A DNA stretch of 64,000 bases from positions 434,001 through 498,000 of the forward strand of contig NC_011689.1 in NCBI RefSeq assembly GCF_000150955.2, read 5' to 3'. The position numbers and the translations under genes were made by a program. Position 1 is the stretch's first letter; every line of letters begins with the position of its first letter. Positions 204 through 12,600 of the stretch are shown here, one piece after another. The notes below the pieces were generated by a model. It saw nothing but the letters and a program-made list of their open reading frames with translations, did no database searches and was not told the origin of the DNA. The stretch comes from Phaeodactylum tricornutum CCAP 1055/1 (taxonomy: Eukaryota > Bacillariophyta > Bacillariophyceae > Surirellales > Neidiaceae).

Positions 204-1022
204 ATGGTGACAATACCGGTATTCGTTGTGCTTATCTTGGTTACCTGGTTGGGCACTTCGGCGGCGTTTACGACTCGAGTGTTACCAACGACTCCCGCTG
301 CAAGTGTTGGTTCTCGCTTCAATCGTAGTACTAGAACTCCCATTCCGAATGCCGACGGAGCTGACGGCTTTCGATCCAACACGGCCTTGCAAGCCTTGAC
401 GATATACGGACACCCGGGTTCCCGATCGCCTTTGGTGAATTGGGCCTGCATCGAGCTCAATGTGGACTATAGTATGGGGGATTTGTCCAACAATCCGCAT
501 CCCTTCCGGCAACTGCCTTGTTTGACGAACGACGACGAAGACGTGGTGGTGTTTGAATCCGGCGCCATTCTGCAGTACCTTTTACGATACTACGGACCTC
601 CCAGTCTGACCAAGGAACAGATTGGTGCCATCATGAGTTGGATAACGTGGGCCAACGCTTCACTGGATCCTATTTGCTTTTTGGAAACACCCGACGGCAA
701 AGTGTACGATACCGGCCTGAAACAGCCCAACCGGAAAATCGATCAACTGAACGAATTGCTGGGCAGGGAAACGTATTTGGTGGAAGGCGCGGGTTTCACG
801 TTGGCGGACGTCGCTGTCTCGAGTTATCTACTGTACGTGCTCCAGTTCTTTCCCAACGTGGATCTGTCGCGGTGGCCGAACCTGGTCCGATACATGACAG
901 ACTGTGCGTCCCGACCCGGTTACGGACAAGCCTTTGGGGAACCAACACAAGCCAGCTTGGTCCAAATGCTCTCGTCTCCGCCACCGTCATCCAAAGATAG
1001 CAAATTGTTTGGTATGTTTTAA
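204..1022 (+). CDS. Glutathione S-transferase-like protein, probably plastid-targeted
   Basis: Encodes 272 residues in one exon. The open frame extends upstream to a GTG at 87, but the only in-frame ATG before the fold is at 204. It starts a hydrophobic signal peptide (residues 2-18) ending in TSAA|F, the diatom plastid junction. The thioredoxin-like half begins near residue 64 (LTIYGHPGSRSP) and carries the glutathione-contact motif ESGAIL near 118. An all-helical C-terminal half follows, with the GST-type stretch FTLADVAVSSYLL. GSTs conjugate or reduce substrates with glutathione; the substrate cannot be read here. The residue after GHPG is Ser-Arg-Ser, compatible with a serine- or cysteine-type active site. 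TGACGT boxes lie at 88-93 and 191-196, just before the start. The fold is well supported; plastid location is inferred. Confidence 0.85.
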   Translation: MVTIPVFVVLILVTWLGTSAAFTTRVLPTTPAASVGSRFNRSTRTPIPNADGADGFRSNTALQALTIYGHPGSRSPLVNWACIELNVDYSMGDLSNNPHPFRQLPCLTNDDEDVVVFESGAILQYLLRYYGPPSLTKEQIGAIMSWITWANASLDPICFLETPDGKVYDTGLKQPNRKIDQLNELLGRETYLVEGAGFTLADVAVSSYLLYVLQFFPNVDLSRWPNLVRYMTDCASRPGYGQAFGEPTQASLVQMLSSPPPSSKDSKLFGMF

Positions 1023-1796: not shown

Positions 1797-4700
1797 ATGG
1801 CGGGTACACCACGGGGGCGTCGTCCGAAAGATCCGGCGGGGATTCACGCTTCCTCCTGGTCAACCCAGACGTACGACGAGGAAAACCCGCCGCGGATTCC
1901 TCCGGTAGAAACGACTGCCACGTCGTACTTGGACATTTCCCTGCCTGCCTCATCCGATTCCTTTCCGGAACGCGGTGACGAAGACAGCGTCCGGTCCCAG
2001 GCAAGCGTCCTTCGTGTTATCCAAAGCAATCACCGGGCCGTGGACTCCTTATTGGGCATTATGCCTCGTGAACTTACACGCGGTTTACGATTGGACAGCA
2101 GTATGTCCGATCGTCTCGACTCGCCTTGCTCGAGCCCGGAACAGTGGGATTCCTTACAAGAAAGCGGACAGAGTCAAAACACCGTCGCCAGTTTTGTGTC
2201 GCGAATTTCGCAGCCTCTGGTCACCTTACCTTCTCGTTCCTACACGTCTTGCGAACGTACATCGCAGGGCAGACCTTCGCCATCCTCGAAAACTCCACGT
2301 ACCACTGGATGGACAGTCTGGTCGACGCAATTGCCCTCGGCATGGCCTGCCAATTCCCATGCCGTGAGCAATGAAGCATCCGAAACCAGTGCCCTCGAGA
2401 AGGAGTGGAGCTGGCGTACGCACAATCAACTGTGGATGGAAGTCGGTAGTCAACACGAAATCGTTTCGACATCCTGCCGTCGGGACTGCAACGGAAGAAT
2501 TATGCCCGTGGCCGCTCAGTCGCCCCTCACCAAACCCAACGAAATCTTTTTTCGGGATCGTGAGCTTGTCCTCCAGGCGTCCATGGCACAGCGAACCATG
2601 TACGACATTCAGCTGAACAACGAAGTCGGTGTTTTGGGAGGCGCCTGGCGAGGCCTCGTGCGACGTCTGGTTTTGCTCGCACTAGACGACGTCAACGCCT
2701 TGCAGCTGAGTCGGGCCTTGCAACTTCAACTACCCTTCCAGACGGGCTTTGAGGCCTACTTGACCTCGCAAGTCATTGAAGCACTGGACAGAGGCGACCC
2801 TGCCGAAGTTGCCGATGTCCTTAGCGTCGCTTTTCTCAATCGGAACGTTTCGCGCGTTATTATACAGAACTTGGGACCCCGGTACGACTTTTTGTGGCAC
2901 TGGAGCACCGCCATTACTTGGAACCGCGTGTTTGACGCTTGGGGACAGTTCCCGATCGTTGGAATCACGGGTTTTCCCGCCACGGAGAACTTCCCTTCCA
3001 CACGCGATCACGCTCTGGCGTCAATCTTTCGCATACTATTGGGACAAGGTAACTGGGTCACTCGTGTTGTCACGCAAGGTCGGGAAGGACTATTGACGGA
3101 CAACCCCAACAACACGGCGCAGAATCTCGCACCCGAGTCCAACGGCTTTGAACTCGCAAACCGCAACCAGTACGGAACGTACTTTGGACGCGCTAAGACT
3201 AACGAGTTCCGTTTCGCCCATCGACTGCCAACCGACGAATCGATTGTGCGGACGTTTGTCACCAGTCCGATGTCCACAATGACGAACAATGGGGTTGTCC
3301 ACGTACTCCGACAGCTAGCCAAGCACTGGCACAATATGTTGTTTCAAGAGTGGGGCAACTTTGCCCACCAGCGTATGGAGCAGTTAGATCCCTTTGAAAC
3401 ACTACGATTTCACATGCCCCGGGTCCTCCTTTTGCTGTCGAGTTTACGGGGTCGCAACGCGTGGGATGCGCAGGTGCTGGGCCCGGTTGTGCGCAGATTG
3501 CAGGCTTTAAAGCCCGATGTGGATACTTCGGCGGCAGTGAATCTGGTCAAGGAGTTACAGGAAGACGTCGTGGCGACGGTGGCGGGTGGCGTTTCTTCCA
3601 TCAGTGATCCCCTTTGGTCCTGGTTGGAGGCCATTGGAGAATCCTTGAATGTTTTGAAAATTCAAGCTGGAGAAGTCCTCAACATTGTCACTCCCGTCGA
3701 ATTGGGCATTCGCCTTGGCCACGATATTGTCACCCAAGTTAGTTGGAAAGTTCCGTCGGACAGTGTTCTTAAGGCAGCCATATTGAATCATATACGAGGG
3801 CAAGGCACGGGCGCTGTGAACAAAAGGTGTATCCATAGCGCTCTTCAGAAGACGACCCCTCGCGACATGCGCACGTTGATAGAACTTGTGAAGGGTGATC
3901 TCGGCCACCTGACGCCAGCTCAGCTGCTCCTCGGTCGAGTCAAGACTTTGCTTCAGCGAGAGCTTCGTCGTGAGTACTTAAATCACACCATTCGGGAATT
4001 GTCCATGGGACCGCATGTGCAAGGTTCGCCAGAGCCGGACGAGTGGTACTGGTTGGAAGAAAAGCACAATAAATCGCCTCATATCTATCTTGGTCGTATA
4101 CCGGGTGGTGATCTCCATCGATTCCTCCATGTTGCATCAGGCAACGATCGGATACTATCTTTGAACGAAGTGATTGTATATTCCTATATTCCTGTCGCGG
4201 AATCCATTTCGCGGGCCCAAAAGGTACGCCTTTCGAACGAAGTGGGGTAACGCAAGCAATCTTCTAGACTTTACTGACATTCTTGCACTTTTAGGCTTTC
4301 ATGACGATCGAGCTCGAGTACGGCAAGACCTTCTCGTACAGCGCCTTTATGGAGTTTTCATTTCTTCGGACCGCGCTTCAACGGCTTGGTATGTATCCAA
4401 TCTATCTCACTGTCAAGTACAACCGTTTGAGGTCTTATTGTTTGCTCACTAAAATATTTTTCGATCGCTAAACAGTTGTTGTGTCCCAGATGAATTGCGA
4501 AGAACTCGACAATGCTCGATTGAACGTCCTCCGAGAAATACAGCGCTCGAAGCAGATCTTCCTCCGTCCAGAAGATCTCATACCCGGGAACACTTACTAT
4601 ACATATGACCAATCTACAGCTCTGTACATGCCGTTCGTTTGCGACGAGAAGACTTCGGTGTCGAAAGAATTTGTCAAGGCTAAGGTTGTGCGGGCACCGC

Positions 4701-7700
4701 CACAGTCTGTTCTTGTCGTCGGAGGAGGCCCGGCTGGCCTGATTACCACGATCCATTGTGCGGAAGCATGTTTGGCGACCGGGGGGCTTATGAAGCTCCA
4801 GGAGGCTCGCGATGCGTTTGCCAAAGGAGGTTCAACCTTCGAAAGAGCTCAGATCGTTCGACTCGATGCTCGCTGGATATCTATGCTGCGTTACCATCTT
4901 GGAACCATTTTTGAGGACGTCTACATTCCTGCTTCCGGGGAAACCGATGCCCAGTTAGGAAATACACTGTAAGTGAGCATTTTGCTGTCTGCGTTGCTCT
5001 TCTTTTCTGGCTGCAGCTCTCATCACAATACCGGCCCTCGATACAGTCCGACGCAAGGTTTCGTTGAGATTACGATCAAAGATTTGGAAAGTTCCTTGCA
5101 CACTGAAGCCTCTCGTCTTTGGTCTCGCGGGATAATTTACGTTCACACTGATTCCAAGGCCCAATACGACTCCATTTCTAACAGTATGATTAAGCAGGGC
5201 AAAACCCTCAAGGACGGCGATGTTGTTCTACGTCCCGTAGATCCGGATGGTAGAGACTGTTCCGATCTTTACTCATGGAAAGTTGCAAAACTCCTCTACA
5301 CACCGCCACTGGGGATCGACGATTTAAAAGTTGGTCAGGAGTACGGGGTCTGGGTACACCAGTATCAGAAAGTGATTCAGTTTAAACTCATAGGAGTTGA
5401 TCTCGACGCGAAGGTATGCCAAGTAGTAGGGCAACCAACAATGTCTCAAGCTCATATCCGAAATCTAATTTTTTGCGCTCTTCTGTTAGTCTTACAAGTT
5501 CCGCCCCCATGCGAAGGGGATCAGTAACCTGAATGTCAACGCGACGAATCTACCATCTCTTTATCCACTTGGAACGGATACGAAAGCTCATGTAGGCGTC
5601 CAAGATATTCGGTTTCAGTGCATGGAAAAAAGACGTACAGGAGAATTTCTTTTTCAGACCGTACCCATGGCATCTATTCAAGATGCCAAATTTACTCTTG
5701 ATCTCGGAAACACGCATGTCGTCGAAGCCATCGGGTAAGCATTGCCTTTACCATTACGCTCTTCCCTCAACGAACATGTCGTCGGGTTGTGCACTCACTT
5801 TTCCCATTTCTTCCGGTCTCTTAGAAAGCAATACCCATCACCCACGCACATTGGTGTCACCACAAAAGAGCCTTACGGCGTGTGCTGTATGCAAGGATTG
5901 AAAGTGTCCATGGGGATGCACAATTTCGGAGAGAAGCGATGGGGAACCGGTATCTTGGACGACGTACGATCGCAAAATGATCAAAATACGAGAATCGTAG
6001 GCGACTTCACAAAGATGGTCCGAGTTGTGCCTATCGTCCAGCGCATGTATGAGACCATATCCAAAGATGACGATTGGCGAATCCATTTCGACATTCTCGT
6101 GAAGGAAAGCGGTGTCCCAGAACTGGAAAAGGTTCAGTCTATATTCCCCCAGCTGGTGACGGCCTGCAAATGGCTAAGCCAAATGTCAGGAAGTTTTCGC
6201 CGTAAAACTTTGCAAACGCGCTTTTTTGAAACTGGAGACAACTACTACCTCGGGATGGAATTTCCAAGGGAATATGAAAGTTGGAAGAAGGAACTTTCTG
6301 ATCGCTTGGTAGAGCCTCTGGCGTCAAATCGAGAGTACGTATCCAAATCCAGGGCGATCGGTCGTCTCCGTTCTACTTTTGTGCATCACATTGACCGACT
6401 ATGGTATGAGGGGTGCCTCGAGACCATTCGAGCTGGCGATGTGTACAATCCAGGAGCACGCAAGCGCGTTCCCCGCCTCTATCTCATCAATTCATACACA
6501 GCACGCTCCCTGAGTTCCTTGCCAATCGGAGAGAGCTTCCGTCTGGTGGCGGAGCCACAGGCAAAGTACGAAGTCCTGACGAAATCAGTAACGCAGGTTA
6601 TTGTGCGGAGTGTGGAAGGGTATATTTCAAAGTTCCAAAACGATACCAAGGTCTTGCGTGAGGGAAACTTGACCCGGGGTCCAGACGGGAACCAAGAGTC
6701 GAAAGTGGTAAGTGAAATGCTATCGTCCCTTTCCTGATGGAGAAGGTGTGTCCAGTCTACGAAGATCTCACACAGCCCGCGTCGTAGTCCTTGGCAACCT
6801 TCGATGTAGGTCACTACGTCAACCATCGAACCATGCGTATCTTAGACAAGGAGAAGGGCTACATCTTCGCTTTCGTCGGAGACGAGCAAGCCACCCCGCA
6901 TTTTATGCGGTACAGTGGGCTGACAGGCGCGTGCATCAACGCGATGTCTTTCAGCAATTTCATCGCAGACGCATGCCTCGGGATCTCTTTCGAGGTGAGG
7001 GTGCAGCAGTACGCGAAGGAAACGGATTGGTCGAACGGAGAAGTCGTTCAACGAGGAACCGGGGCAAACTACGGGCAGGACGGTTTCTTGCGTCCGGGCT
7101 TTTCCTACCGAGACGGAGTGGACTACTTATACTCAAAAACAGTGGAGTTCGAGGAAACCGGACAAGATTTGGACACATTATTGTCTCGCGACTGGATGGT
7201 TAAGCTCACGGCTTCCCTTGTACCTCGTGGGCTGGAAAATAATCAGGCCTTTCTCGGAAGCTTGCAGCAGCACTGGAATGCGGCGGTGTTTGACAAGTTG
7301 GAGGCTAAAATAGAGTCCGATATCCCAGCCGATGGAAGTGGAGCCAGTATCGTCGATGCCGTTCGGTATAGTCGCAGTATCCTGGCCGAGAAGGATGTCG
7401 TGATGACTGAATACTGTGAACTGTTGCTAGGGCATCTGCAAGTCGATGAGGCGACTAAGAAAGTCCTGGCTGCACAGCATTTCCCCCGTGCTCGTCGACT
7501 TTGTGCTATTCTCAGTCAGTTAACCGAATTCGCCTCCAACGCCTATTTGCACAACGAGCGGGTGAGCTCTGAGCTCTTCAACCAACCGAAACCGGTCGAC
7601 TCCCTGATCGACGACTTCTCTGTGGAAGCCCAGAACTTCGCGAACTCCTTGACCCAGTCAGCAGCTCTTGCATCCGGCGTTCTTGCGTTCCGACTCATCG

Positions 7701-9229
7701 GCAGCAGCCTTGGTAATCTTGTCTCTGCTATATTTGCTGGATTAAACATTGTGATCTCGTTCGGAACCATGGCGAATGTGTCTCGATACAAGATTCGGAA
7801 TGAGGAATCGCGGGTCTTGTTTGCCGACCAGAAATTTTCCCGGGTGCAGTGCGGTGTTTTCGCCTTGATGAGCCGAGACGAGCAAGATTCGACGCCGTTG
7901 GCGAAAAATCCCTTTTTGAATCTTTTGGAGCAACGGGCGAGATCGTTCCGTGACAGCTTGACCTACTACGGGTACAGTAAATCATCTGAATTTGACAATG
8001 CATACGAGCAACTCAAGTCACGTGCGAACGACATAAGCGAGATCCAGAAGTTTCAAGATTTGCTGGTCTCCAAGCTGATCGTGGACACGTATCATGTCAA
8101 TAGCTACGTGCAAGAAAAGCTTGTCGATGTTCTCCGAGTGCTGGACGAAATGAACTTCCTGCTCGAAAGCAGGAGCTCCAAGTCAGGAAACGATGCCAAG
8201 CAGCTATTCGACAGGTTGCTTGCGTACGATCACATGATGGAAGACTCGTTGCAGAGAGGCCCAGTGCGCTTTGGTTTTATCAAACAGCGAAAGTTTTGGC
8301 ATTGGAACATTATCGTAGCTTTCCGGTACTTGTACAGTCTCCTCTGTTGCTCCTCCAGACGCCACTCCATTAAGTTCGCTCCAATTCAAACTGAAACCAG
8401 AGGTATCGTGAAAAGTCTTCACTTTCTATCGAAGGAACACGATTCGAAGGTTTTGCGACGTGAGAGTCGAGACTTTGAGACCTTCTTCTGGGCCACTCGT
8501 GAAAGTGACGTCGCCTCTCTGATTTTCCTGTCTGGTTTCTTCGTCTTCGTCGCCTCGGTCCTTTTCAGCGTAGCGCGAATCTTCGACATTGACTCTCTGG
8601 AAGATGTCGCTTTCTGGGCCAATGCTGTGTCCACAATTGGTGCTGTTTTGGCGGCTCTACATCTTCTTCGCAAGCTTGTCATCCTAATTGGGCTTTGGAC
8701 AATCCTGTGTTCGAAGACGAGTCGTACGGATGGAAAGGATCGCGTCAATATTAGCCGGATCCGTAACGTGACGATGACTCAGATTCTTCTGACCTTGACC
8801 CGTCTAGTAACTACCCTGGCTGCTTCCGCGGCCTTGCCTTGGTCAGTGATCGAGAACGCCTTCCCTGATGCTAGTTCCTTGAGCTCAGATATTCCCGTTT
8901 GGATTGCGTTGGGTGCGGTGTCCATGGCGATTCTGGCAACAGTATTTTTCTTCCTTGTGGAATATGTGGTCCGCTACAATCTCAGCCCGCAGCTTGGACC
9001 CTTTGTCAGCGAGCTTTTCCGCGACGAAATCGAAAGCATACACCAGGACTTGTCGGTGCGTCAAAATGAGATAGACACGAAGATAGTCCAGGACCGTGAA
9101 AACTGGGAGTATGTTGCGAGAGAGTTTCTGCACAAGTACCGCTTCGACACCGTGTTTGCGGCGGATCGGTTCGGTACCATACTCCAGTACATACAATCTG
9201 GAATGAAGCAGCCTGCTGACTCCAAGTGA
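1797..9229 (+). CDS. Giant flavin monooxygenase-like membrane protein, seven exons
   Basis: Exons 1797-4223, 4295-4388, 4476-4968, 5017-5413, 5490-5734, 5825-6707 and 6788-9229 join in frame to 2326 residues. All six introns (71, 87, 48, 76, 90 and 80 nt) have GT-AG ends and matching phases. Residues 1-900 are not recognisable; 1-190 are Ser/Pro-rich and the rest looks helical. A Rossmann dinucleotide-binding start, VLVVGGGPAGL, sits near 919-929. The second flavin motif of aromatic-hydroxylase-like FAD monooxygenases, GDEQATPHF followed by RYSGLTGA, lies at about 1544. One hydrophobic stretch is near 1802-1835. The C-terminal region has about four membrane segments (roughly 2085-2108, 2118-2148, 2170-2192 and 2210-2236) before a charged tail. 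I infer a membrane-bound FAD oxidoreductase. Substrate and pathway are not visible, and the N-terminal 900 residues may form a separate module. The 48-nt third intron is short. The last intron holds coding-like sequence in frame with exon 7 (see findings). Confidence 0.8.
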
Positions 9230-9671: not shown

Positions 9672-12600
9672 TCATACCGCAATTCCTTGGGACATGTACT
9701 GATATAGGTCATACTGTCGAGTGCCATACGATGTTGTGGCCTGTTTAATCAAATCGAGGGCAAAGGCAATTGTCTCTCCCTTGCTCAGATTGGTACAGAA
9801 GCGCTCTTTAAGCTTAGCGACAACCTCTACAGTATCTCTGCCTTCAAAGCATTTGAATGTGCTATCCTTGCTCATGATTTCCACAACTGTAAGGAATGTT
9901 TCAGAGTGACACTGCAAAGCCAAAAAACCGCAACAGAACAAAGTGACGAACTCAGAGAAGAGAGGAGACCGTAATCCACCCATCACATCTAGCATTTCTT
10001 CAGTCAACTTGAAAGGCGTGGACATTTCGAGACTGAACGAGCCCCCTGGAGCAGCTCCAAACACAAAGCCAAAGTCGATATGAATCACATGGCCCGCAGT
10101 ATCGAGCAGAATATTACCGTTGTGCCGATCTTTGAACATAAATAAGTATGACATCAACGAATAGGCTGCCAGGCTTCGGACAAAGTTTCGTTGTGCCGAC
10201 TTGAAAGCTCCTCCAGGATTTGCAGTAAATTCTGTCATACGGTGAAGATGCTCTCTCAGTCCTCCTTTTCCGTAACCAGGGCGCTTTTTCAAAGCGTCGA
10301 ATGACATGGCATTTCGGACCATTTCAATGACACCCGTTGTTCGCCCCGTGGCGAGAATGCGATAAGGATTTACCCACAACTCCAATCCAGCAAGTTCAAA
10401 TGCTTCCTGACACAATTCAATGAGCTGCATAACGAAAGCTTCTTGGCGGAGATCGTCGTTCGACTTGACGATTACTCCGACTAAATCCCACCCTGGAAGT
10501 GATCCCTGAGGACTGGTTGCAGATATTCGTGATTTCTTTTCAGCCCATCGCTCCCCGAAAGCAAAGCGTCCCCAAAAATCCGAATTTTCGATTAGCTTGT
10601 CAACATTTGCGACGTCCAGCAACACAGAGTGTCGAACAAATTGAATATCCTTCTTTACCAATTCGAGTAGCTCTCCATTGGTAACCATGCCTCCCTTCCA
10701 CAGAGTCAATGCCTGAAGAACAGCAGGAGGTAGTGGGCCACATCCAGCCAAACGTGGATCTACGTCACCGGCATCGATTGTAGGTGTTTCACTGAGATCC
10801 CGTGGGGAGCTAAAGTCTTTTTCAGGGGAGCGATCTGAGAAAGTTCGGTTTAAAGAAGCATGCTGTAAAACCTTCGCTGCATCTGCTGCACTAAGCTGCC
10901 CCTGCGCAACGCGATTCTGAATGAGATGTAAGCGAATAGATTCCATTGCCTCGTCTTCTTCGCTCGGCTGACAACGCATAGCCTCCTCGTCTGAGCTTTT
11001 TGGGCTTAAAGCGATGAGCCCAAGTGAAGCGAGCTTCTGCCGAGTGCTCTCAAGTTCGACGTAAGTGGCATCTACAACTTGATCTTCGTGTTTCAAATCC
11101 TCCGTTTTCTCCAACAGTAGCTCTGTCGCCCGTTGTCGTTCTAATTCCTGAAGACTTCGTTGAACGGAATCGGCTGTTCCAGCAGCTATAGTATTGCCTT
11201 GGAAGCCCCGCATCATGATAACGTTCAGTACTTCTCGACGCACGTCCCCAGTAGGAGCGAGAGTATTCGATAAATCGACCCTGTTGATCCCGTACTGCAT
11301 TTTCCCTAGAGCCGACATTCTTGATCTCCTCCGATTCACAAGAGGCGAACTGGTTGGTGGCGAGGGTTTATCGTCCAACGTCGAAGTTTTTTCTGCGTTG
11401 GAACTAAGGGTGGATTCTGGACCATCTACTCTGCGATGGTCGGAAGCAGGATCGTTCCATTTTGCAGAATTGTGTTCTACGCTTTCCACAGTAACGTCGT
11501 TGTCACCATTCGCGTTAAGATTTGGTTCAATCGCCGCTTCTTTGGTAAACTCCTCTGCAGTAGCGGTCGAGTTTACTTCTGCTACGTTGAGATCAGGCAA
11601 TCCAACTTCGTTCATCTGCTGTACAATAACGCTAGCCACTAGATCCTCGACATCTTGTCTCGGAGTCAATGACACTTCTGCAGCGTTACCGGCGATCCCG
11701 AAACGTTTCAAAGCAGTAGCTGCAACGAGAAATACACGGTGGTTAGACCGATCATTGCCGACAAACACTTGCTTTGGTATCTACGAATTTGTCTTGAAAG
11801 ACTTACGTTTCGGAGACCGTTTCGAATCGTCAGAGGCTTCGACACTTAATAAAGCATCCCGGTCCGACTCGTTGAGAGATTGAGACAAGAATTTGGAAGC
11901 AACTTCATCTTTGGACTCCTGAGGTTGTGGCTCGTCCGCAACCTTTCCATCAGGGACATCAGGTAAGTCTGCTTCGGCGGGAAACTCCATGACTTGCGCA
12001 CTTTCTTCCAAGTACTCGCTCCCTGCATGCGACTCGCTGGCTATTGGATCCAATGGCATCTCCTCAACGGACACAATTGGACTAGAGGATTGGTTTTCTT
12101 GGTCTTCTTCGGCTATCATCGCACCTCCATCAATGACTTCCATTAGGAGTAGTATTGGCGTCCGTTCTTTACTCCGGAAAACGTGTCCTTCTGTTCTGGG
12201 CACCCGCACGACGCGCACTAAGTTATCGGTGCGATTCTCTCGCAAAGCATTCAAAGGATCACCCCCCATTGTTCCGGATGTATTTAACATCCCCAGCTCC
12301 TCCTCCAAGGCTGCGTGTCTTTTATCGATCTCCAAAAAGCGCAACTTTTCTGCCACATCACACAGTCGCTTGGTAAAATTCAAATGCGCCGAGAAGTACT
12401 CAGCATGCTTGGCAATTTGGAGTTTGTGCGAGGCGGCTTGCGACGGATCGTTGTCACAGGCGTTGCAATTGATGTCCACATTGGCACGTCGTCGTGACCA
12501 CAAACTGTTCCGAGCTGATCGAGTCATTTGCCACGGCGAGTTTCGGCGCAGAGCTTGCAGATCCTTCATGACGAGAGACAAAAGATCGAGTTGATGCGCC

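Follow-up and report, generated by a model that had tools for sequence, protein, structure and literature searches.

A large diatom flavoprotein with a PHBH/MICAL-type flavin domain, a conserved helical module and a predicted membrane end

Gene structure and copies in the genome

We analyzed a stretch of 64,000 nucleotides from the diatom Phaeodactylum tricornutum (hereafter the window), which corresponds to bases 434001-498000 of contig 21 in a genome of 27,450,724 bases and 88 contigs. Near its start lies a single gene of seven exons that encodes a very large flavoprotein (table 1). A first-pass annotation, made from the sequence alone, had joined seven exons in phase into a product of 2326 residues. 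Translation of these joined exons indeed gave one open frame of that length with GT-AG introns, and all seven exons were confirmed, but one boundary had to be corrected. The acceptor of exon 4 lies at 5047, 30 bases downstream of the original choice (5017), which removes ten residues (SHHNTGPRYS) and leaves a protein of 2316 amino acids (aa). In the text below, residue numbers follow the 2326-residue numbering; beyond residue 1014, 10 should be subtracted for the corrected protein.

The corrected start of exon 4 rests on homolog junctions and on the behavior of paralogs. The ten residues are present solely in the uncorrected model; they are absent from the aligned relatives and missing at the LGNTL-PTQGFVE junction in all 32 homologs whose junction could be read by pattern. 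Furthermore, an acceptor of the 5017 type breaks the frame in each of the three paralogs described below, by an in-frame stop in the contig 21 copy and by a frame shift plus stop in the two contig 16 copies, whereas the 5047 type yields LPTQGFVEITIKDLE in all three. Intron lengths after the correction are 71-90 bases; the uncorrected model included one of 48.

A search with the full-length protein returned 59 proteins at E <= 1, of which 28 are single proteins aligned over 88% or more of the query (30-56% identity). One of them is P0011, an open reading frame (ORF) from an MMETSP transcript; it and a second MMETSP transcript ORF that is also whole, P0178, are labeled complete by their source, and the fusion is thus a single protein in the species concerned. 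In addition, the blocks of the protein follow one another in identical order at three paralogous loci. Although the transcript ORFs stem from relatives and none from the window gene itself, it is scarcely credible that two or more neighboring genes were joined by an artefact of the gene model, and this explanation was rejected on the basis of the full-length homologs and transcript ORFs.

The same genome contains three further near-full copies of the gene and one fragment (table 1). The contig 21 copy (L030) is 89.8% identical to the window gene in DNA over 6.9 kb. Along the two contig 21 genes similarity is 98-100% in a pair of 400-base bins close to the 3' end but falls to 52-54% in bins near the 5' end, a pattern as after gene conversion, to judge from the sequence comparison. 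Between the contig 21 and contig 16 copies, synonymous sites are near saturation (pS 0.63-0.66). The ratio of nonsynonymous to synonymous substitution rates (dN/dS) in exon 7, the exon tested, is 0.11-0.23 in all six pairs among the four copies, indicating that the proteins are kept by purifying selection. Some 32 kb separate the two contig 16 copies, which lie close to the start of their contig, and the fragment is close to the end of contig 4, so that several copies are found near contig ends.

Table 1. Features of the flavoprotein gene and related loci. Positions are those of the window unless a contig (C) or locus (L) is given; motif counts refer to 18 eukaryotic rows (17 relatives plus the window protein itself).
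Feature	Position	Strand	Remarks
Whole coding region, 7 exons, ATG to TGA	1797..9229	+	2316 aa corrected; contig 21 paralog aligns from residue 1
Exon 1, aa 1-809: weakly conserved start, helical module, small barrel	1797..4223	+
Exon 2	4295..4388	+	Junctions consistent with family consensus
Exon 3, carries GGGPAG flavin motif	4476..4968	+
Exon 4, corrected start	5047..5413	+	Homolog junctions, paralog frames
Exon 5	5490..5734	+
Exon 6	5825..6707	+
Exon 7: GD motif, C-terminal helices, membrane segments	6788..9229	+	dN/dS 0.11-0.23, 4 copies
All-helical module, aa 248-737, conserved	2538..4007	+	AlphaFold model of aa 200-809
Small SH3/Tudor-like beta barrel (model), aa 738-798	4008..4190	+
Stretch before flavin domain, aa 801-915	4197..4699	+	Spans introns 1-2; first ~60 residues are the collar common with bacteria
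PHBH/MICAL-fold flavin domain, ~aa 916-1680	4700..7288	+	Spans introns
GGGPAG dinucleotide-binding motif	4721..4738	+	GGGP.G in 18/18 rows; agrees with GxGxxG
VRLD motif	4856..4867	+	18/18 rows; also both aligned bacterial rows
Eukaryote-specific beta-rich insert region, aa 1113-1183	5339..5627	+	Discontinuous; spans intron 4; columns missing in both bacterial rows; strands in model
HVVEAIGK at DG-motif position	5715..5828	+	Split by intron 5; G and K kept in 18/18 rows, Asp in 0/18
YLGMEF strand	6246..6263	+	GME in 18/18 rows; bacterial rows YIGMEL or YLGLEL
Eukaryote-specific beta-rich insert, aa 1426-1496	6444..6656	+	Alignment and AlphaFold model
GD motif (binds the FAD ribityl chain in group A enzymes), GDEQATPHFMRYSGLTGA	6878..6931	+	GD and PHFMRYSGLTG in 18/18 rows; bacterial counterpart GDAAASPHFMRYSGLTGA
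Four predicted membrane helices (8519-8575, 8612-8668, 8783-8839, 8903-8959)	8519..8959	+	Family-mean hydropathy
Conserved C-terminal tail, WEYVAREFLHKYRFDTVFAADRFG	9101..9226	+	Family consensus
Copy L030	C21:406812-414257	reverse	Head to head, ~21.5 kb upstream of window gene; outside window (region C21:405500-414500)
Copy L031	C16:5120-12258		Aligned from residue 120
Copy L032	C16:37372-44510		Aligned from residue 120
Fragment L033, pieces missing	C4:1357754-1358937 of 1360148		Near contig 4 end
Endozoicomonas arenosclerae relative in two ORFs	L002:223-2550		Probably broken gene
Protein-kinase-like ORF (PF00069, E 3.3e-15)	L003:10129-11781	-	Adjoins bacterial relative
Glutathione S-transferase-like gene	204-1022	+	Hydrophobic start
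Phosphatidylinositol 3-/4-kinase gene	9672-11780	-

Architecture of the protein

The central part of the protein is a flavin domain. Its AlphaFold model (predicted template modeling score, pTM, 0.81) matches flavoproteins of the PHBH/MICAL type and holds both flavin motifs, GGGPAG at residue 923 and GDEQATPHF at residue 1544, inside one domain. Their distance of 621 residues agrees with the earlier estimate of about 620. The split flavin domain with a long unfamiliar insert that had been proposed from this spacing is replaced by a single PHBH/MICAL-fold domain with beta-rich inserts. In PHBH and MICAL the two motifs are about 280-310 residues apart. Identity to group A monooxygenases (PHBH, KMO, UbiH and their relatives) is 8-14% in the structural alignments listed. 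Within the 18 eukaryotic rows, the dinucleotide-binding, VRLD, GME and GD motifs are invariant (table 1), the last of these corresponding to the motif that in group A enzymes binds the ribityl chain of flavin adenine dinucleotide (FAD).

No Pfam model was detected in the window protein at E <= 10. The 17 relatives gave weak matches to FAD/NAD-binding families in Pfam (best DAO, E 1.6e-5, four members), a match of six members to Glu_dehyd_C and scattered matches of single members, and NCBIfam added weak matches only (best 0.0049). None of the Pfam, NCBIfam, PHROGs or PADLOC families searched covers the protein, in agreement with the earlier statement that no named family has this order of domains.

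When the mixed flavin alignment (A2) was compared with PDB sequences, the best match was MICAL3 (E 0.0033), and the profile of bacterial relatives listed two other flavoproteins ahead of MICAL, which took ranks three and four. Foldseek placed MICAL first for the flavin-domain model, but by VIA Z score MICAL was tied with others. Both proteins have a FAD domain of PHBH-type fold, and both are eukaryotic and multi-domain. In MICAL, CH and LIM domains follow the flavin domain; neither was detected in the window protein (0 Pfam families at E <= 10), nor among 25 of the 26 families for the 17 relatives. The diatom protein also differs in having the flavin domain in its middle, interrupted by beta-rich inserts, in adding a helical module of about 490 residues and four predicted C-terminal membrane helices, and in missing the aspartate of the DG motif, which is considered below.

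The N-terminal 900 residues had been regarded as unrecognized in the first-pass annotation. Residues 1-247 are weakly conserved among relatives, residues 738-798 form a small barrel in the model, and a collar at about residues 801-860 is common with bacterial proteins, so that the part without known relative shrinks to about 490 helical residues. For these, the AlphaFold model of residues 200-809 has a mean predicted local distance difference test score of 82.6 and a pTM of 0.75. Foldseek found no match for the helical module in PDB or BFVD at E <= 0.001. The window protein and exon 1 had no match in Pfam, PHROGs or PADLOC, and the relatives gave nothing convincing for this module in Pfam or NCBIfam. 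Structure matches of the N-terminal model by VIA are nearly all to the small barrel, and the helical part was barely tested by that method.

The membrane segments noticed earlier are reflected in four family-wide hydropathy peaks at residues 2091-2109, 2122-2140, 2179-2197 and 2219-2237. A weaker hydrophobic stretch is present at residues 1796-1845.

Relatives in eukaryotes and bacteria

Relatives with the same order, in which a helical module precedes a flavin domain of monooxygenase type whose motifs lie far apart and a multi-pass membrane end follows, occur in diatoms and in a Bigelowiella branch. Named relatives include those from Seminavis robusta (54% identity) and Nitzschia inconspicua (53%), both over 88-89% coverage, Cylindrotheca closterium (34%), Ditylum brightwellii (35%, with 78% of the query covered) and Bigelowiella (30%); the remaining relatives in the full-length search are mostly unnamed metagenome sequences. 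Another relative search gave 235 matches; the best 120 are for the most part fragments that closely resemble the query. With the Bigelowiella protein as query, 13 proteins were found, including P0176, P0177 and P0178 (2345 residues). These three and the Bigelowiella protein form one clade (support 100/94) in a tree of 42 rows (31 returned proteins, the window protein and 10 bacterial proteins), which has an arbitrary root and gave long-branch warnings. The presence of full-length members in the Bigelowiella branch means that the family is not specific to stramenopiles, as had been suggested, and the flavin module extends to gammaproteobacteria as well. A viral source was also rejected: a pattern scan (A1) of viral contigs gave 20 matches, none of which encodes a relative.

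P0176 bears a precomputed WW domain (PF00397). A sequence labeled Ectocarpus fasciculatus (P0017) falls within a clade of diatom sequences, beside a metagenome sequence (support 100/100); because of this nested position it may represent contamination or gene transfer.

A scan of prokaryote genomes revealed three loci, two in Endozoicomonas arenosclerae and one in a gammaproteobacterial metagenome-assembled genome (L003, 1285 aa). One of the Endozoicomonas genes is intact (L004, 913 aa). The other is split into two ORFs (table 1). In the family of that Endozoicomonas genome, which we take to be Endozoicomonadaceae and whose members are presumably symbionts, 14 of the 37 genomes have matches at E <= 0.001, and in 11 of these the value falls below 1e-15; the proteins are mostly 900-1100 aa long and uncharacterized. 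In four genomes of this family, two or three flavin-module ORFs, each about 900-1000 aa long, lie close to one another (G028:C52, G018:C1, G029:C1 and G017:C926, i.e., L022, L023, L026 and L027). A wider spread in bacteria was rejected on the matches listed. At E <= 0.001, the 398 genomes searched for the phylum gave 125 with matches and the 274 for the class gave 50, but those listed, source genomes aside, are confined to 28-87 positions around the dinucleotide motif and were therefore not taken as members.

Profile comparison of diatom residues 800-1700 with the bacterial proteins aligned 507 columns, collar included, at E 3.5e-37 (reversed control, E 0.2). Taken alone, the collar scored more weakly: hhalign gave E 3.6e-5 over 59 columns (probability 71%), and comparison with the full bacterial profile gave E 4.4e-4 at the identical position (probability 34%; reversed control, E 0.32). 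By these alignments, a collar of about 60 residues and the flavin domain are common to the diatom protein and the proteins of L003 and the Endozoicomonas family, whereas the insert segments are missing in the aligned bacterial rows and neither the helical module nor the membrane end found a match. When the diatom helical module was compared with the N-terminus of the bacterial proteins, hhalign gave E 0.54, no better than the 0.52 of the reversed control, and a common origin was rejected. The membrane end likewise did not match the bacterial proteins, with E 0.55 as compared with 0.3 for the reversed control. Spacing from GxGPxG to PHFM is 396 residues in L004 and 512 in L003 vs 627 in the window protein. 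Two neighbors of the bacterial genes did not match any diatom block (best E 0.094), and a protein-kinase-like ORF adjoins the relative in L003.

Possible mode of action

The reading that we prefer, with roughly even confidence, is a membrane-anchored monooxygenase similar to MICAL, driven by reduced nicotinamide adenine dinucleotide or its phosphate (NAD(P)H) and with a protein or some other macromolecule as its partner. FAD would sit in the one domain built by both flavin motifs and would be reduced by NAD(P)H; O2 could then add to the reduced flavin, and oxygen would be handed to the partner. The task of holding or selecting this partner may fall to the helical module together with the inserted barrels. 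The four C-terminal helices would fix the enzyme to a membrane. Of this picture, the gene, its architecture, the family, the fold match of the model, the module in common with bacteria and the purifying selection are shown; FAD occupancy, NAD(P)H use, reaction, substrate and topology are inferred. Lysine and arginine abound in the loop that joins helices 2 and 3 (mean 5.1 basic vs 1.7 acidic residues), and the loop from helix 3 to helix 4 is acidic, which suggests an inner position for both the flavin domain and the tail at the C-terminus; as far as sequence can tell, the flavin domain probably lies on the cytosolic side.

Membrane helices after the flavin domain are also a feature of KMO (kynurenine 3-monooxygenase) and squalene epoxidase. 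The diatom protein might similarly be a membrane-bound enzyme that hydroxylates a small lipophilic compound (a quinone, a sterol, a pigment or a lipid), in which the C-terminal helices merely bring the enzyme to its substrate. KMO (4j31, VIA Z 17.2) and UbiH (17.0) belong to the same fold group and are tied in it. On the other hand, this reading does not account for the inserted barrels or for the conserved helical module of 490 residues, and the membrane end is without match in the bacterial members. We consider it unlikely.

Several observations weigh against a membrane-anchored MICAL-like monooxygenase. First, the aspartate of the DG motif, a defining feature of group A enzymes, is missing in all 18 eukaryotic rows, where the residue preceding the conserved glycine is I (11 rows), T (4), V (1), S (1) or L (1); among ten bacterial rows it is absent in eight, and the other two have CADGK. 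Because of this absence, we claim a PHBH/MICAL fold and a mode of working that is probably like that of group A enzymes, not a proven membership in that group. Second, the flavin domain is interrupted by inserts. Third, the full-length alignment recovered no MICAL among PDB sequences. Finally, the loops before helix 1 (3.5 basic vs 4.1 acidic residues) and after helix 4 (5.2 vs 8.1) are not net positive, and the topology is thus a suggestion only. The lost aspartate and the inserts would be consistent with a flavin-binding protein that does not oxygenate, either a scaffold or a redox sensor without NAD(P)H chemistry. We regard this as quite improbable, since the GGGP.G, VRLD, GME and GD motifs are strictly conserved and dN/dS is low in exon 7, the site of the GD motif.

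For MICAL itself, PMC3645671 reports that the enzyme acts on F-actin, modifying Met44 and Met47, and that it oxidizes NADPH and releases H2O2 without a partner. The latter activity would fit an NAD(P)H oxidase that deliberately generates H2O2 close to a membrane for signaling and hydroxylates no substrate. This is rather improbable in our view: no sequence feature singles it out, and the conserved YLGMEF strand may point to a shaped pocket. A word search of open-licence papers found no literature linking MICAL monooxygenase with diatoms or with Endozoicomonas, which is no proof of absence in print.

More broadly, we put forward a tentative idea, about which our doubts outweigh our confidence. 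The family might be an unnamed branch of membrane-anchored, MICAL-like protein oxidases with a new helical substrate-binding module, serving diatoms and chlorarachniophytes as a system of redox control. Its flavin core would be common, probably by gene transfer, with coral and sponge symbiont bacteria around Endozoicomonas, which often carry it in several copies. A protein of more than 2300 residues that is 53-54% identical to its relatives from two named pennate diatoms and has three more near-full copies in the same genome is at present without a matching Pfam or NCBIfam domain model, and naming the family would annotate many marine plankton sequences. With a name, the family could also be used to ask whether algae have a membrane-bound, MICAL-type oxidation of macromolecules, and for what reason symbiotic bacteria of the sea have this flavin core in common with them.

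Two further genes flank the flavoprotein gene in the window (table 1). A glutathione S-transferase-like gene lies just upstream of it, and a phosphatidylinositol 3-/4-kinase gene is convergent with it.
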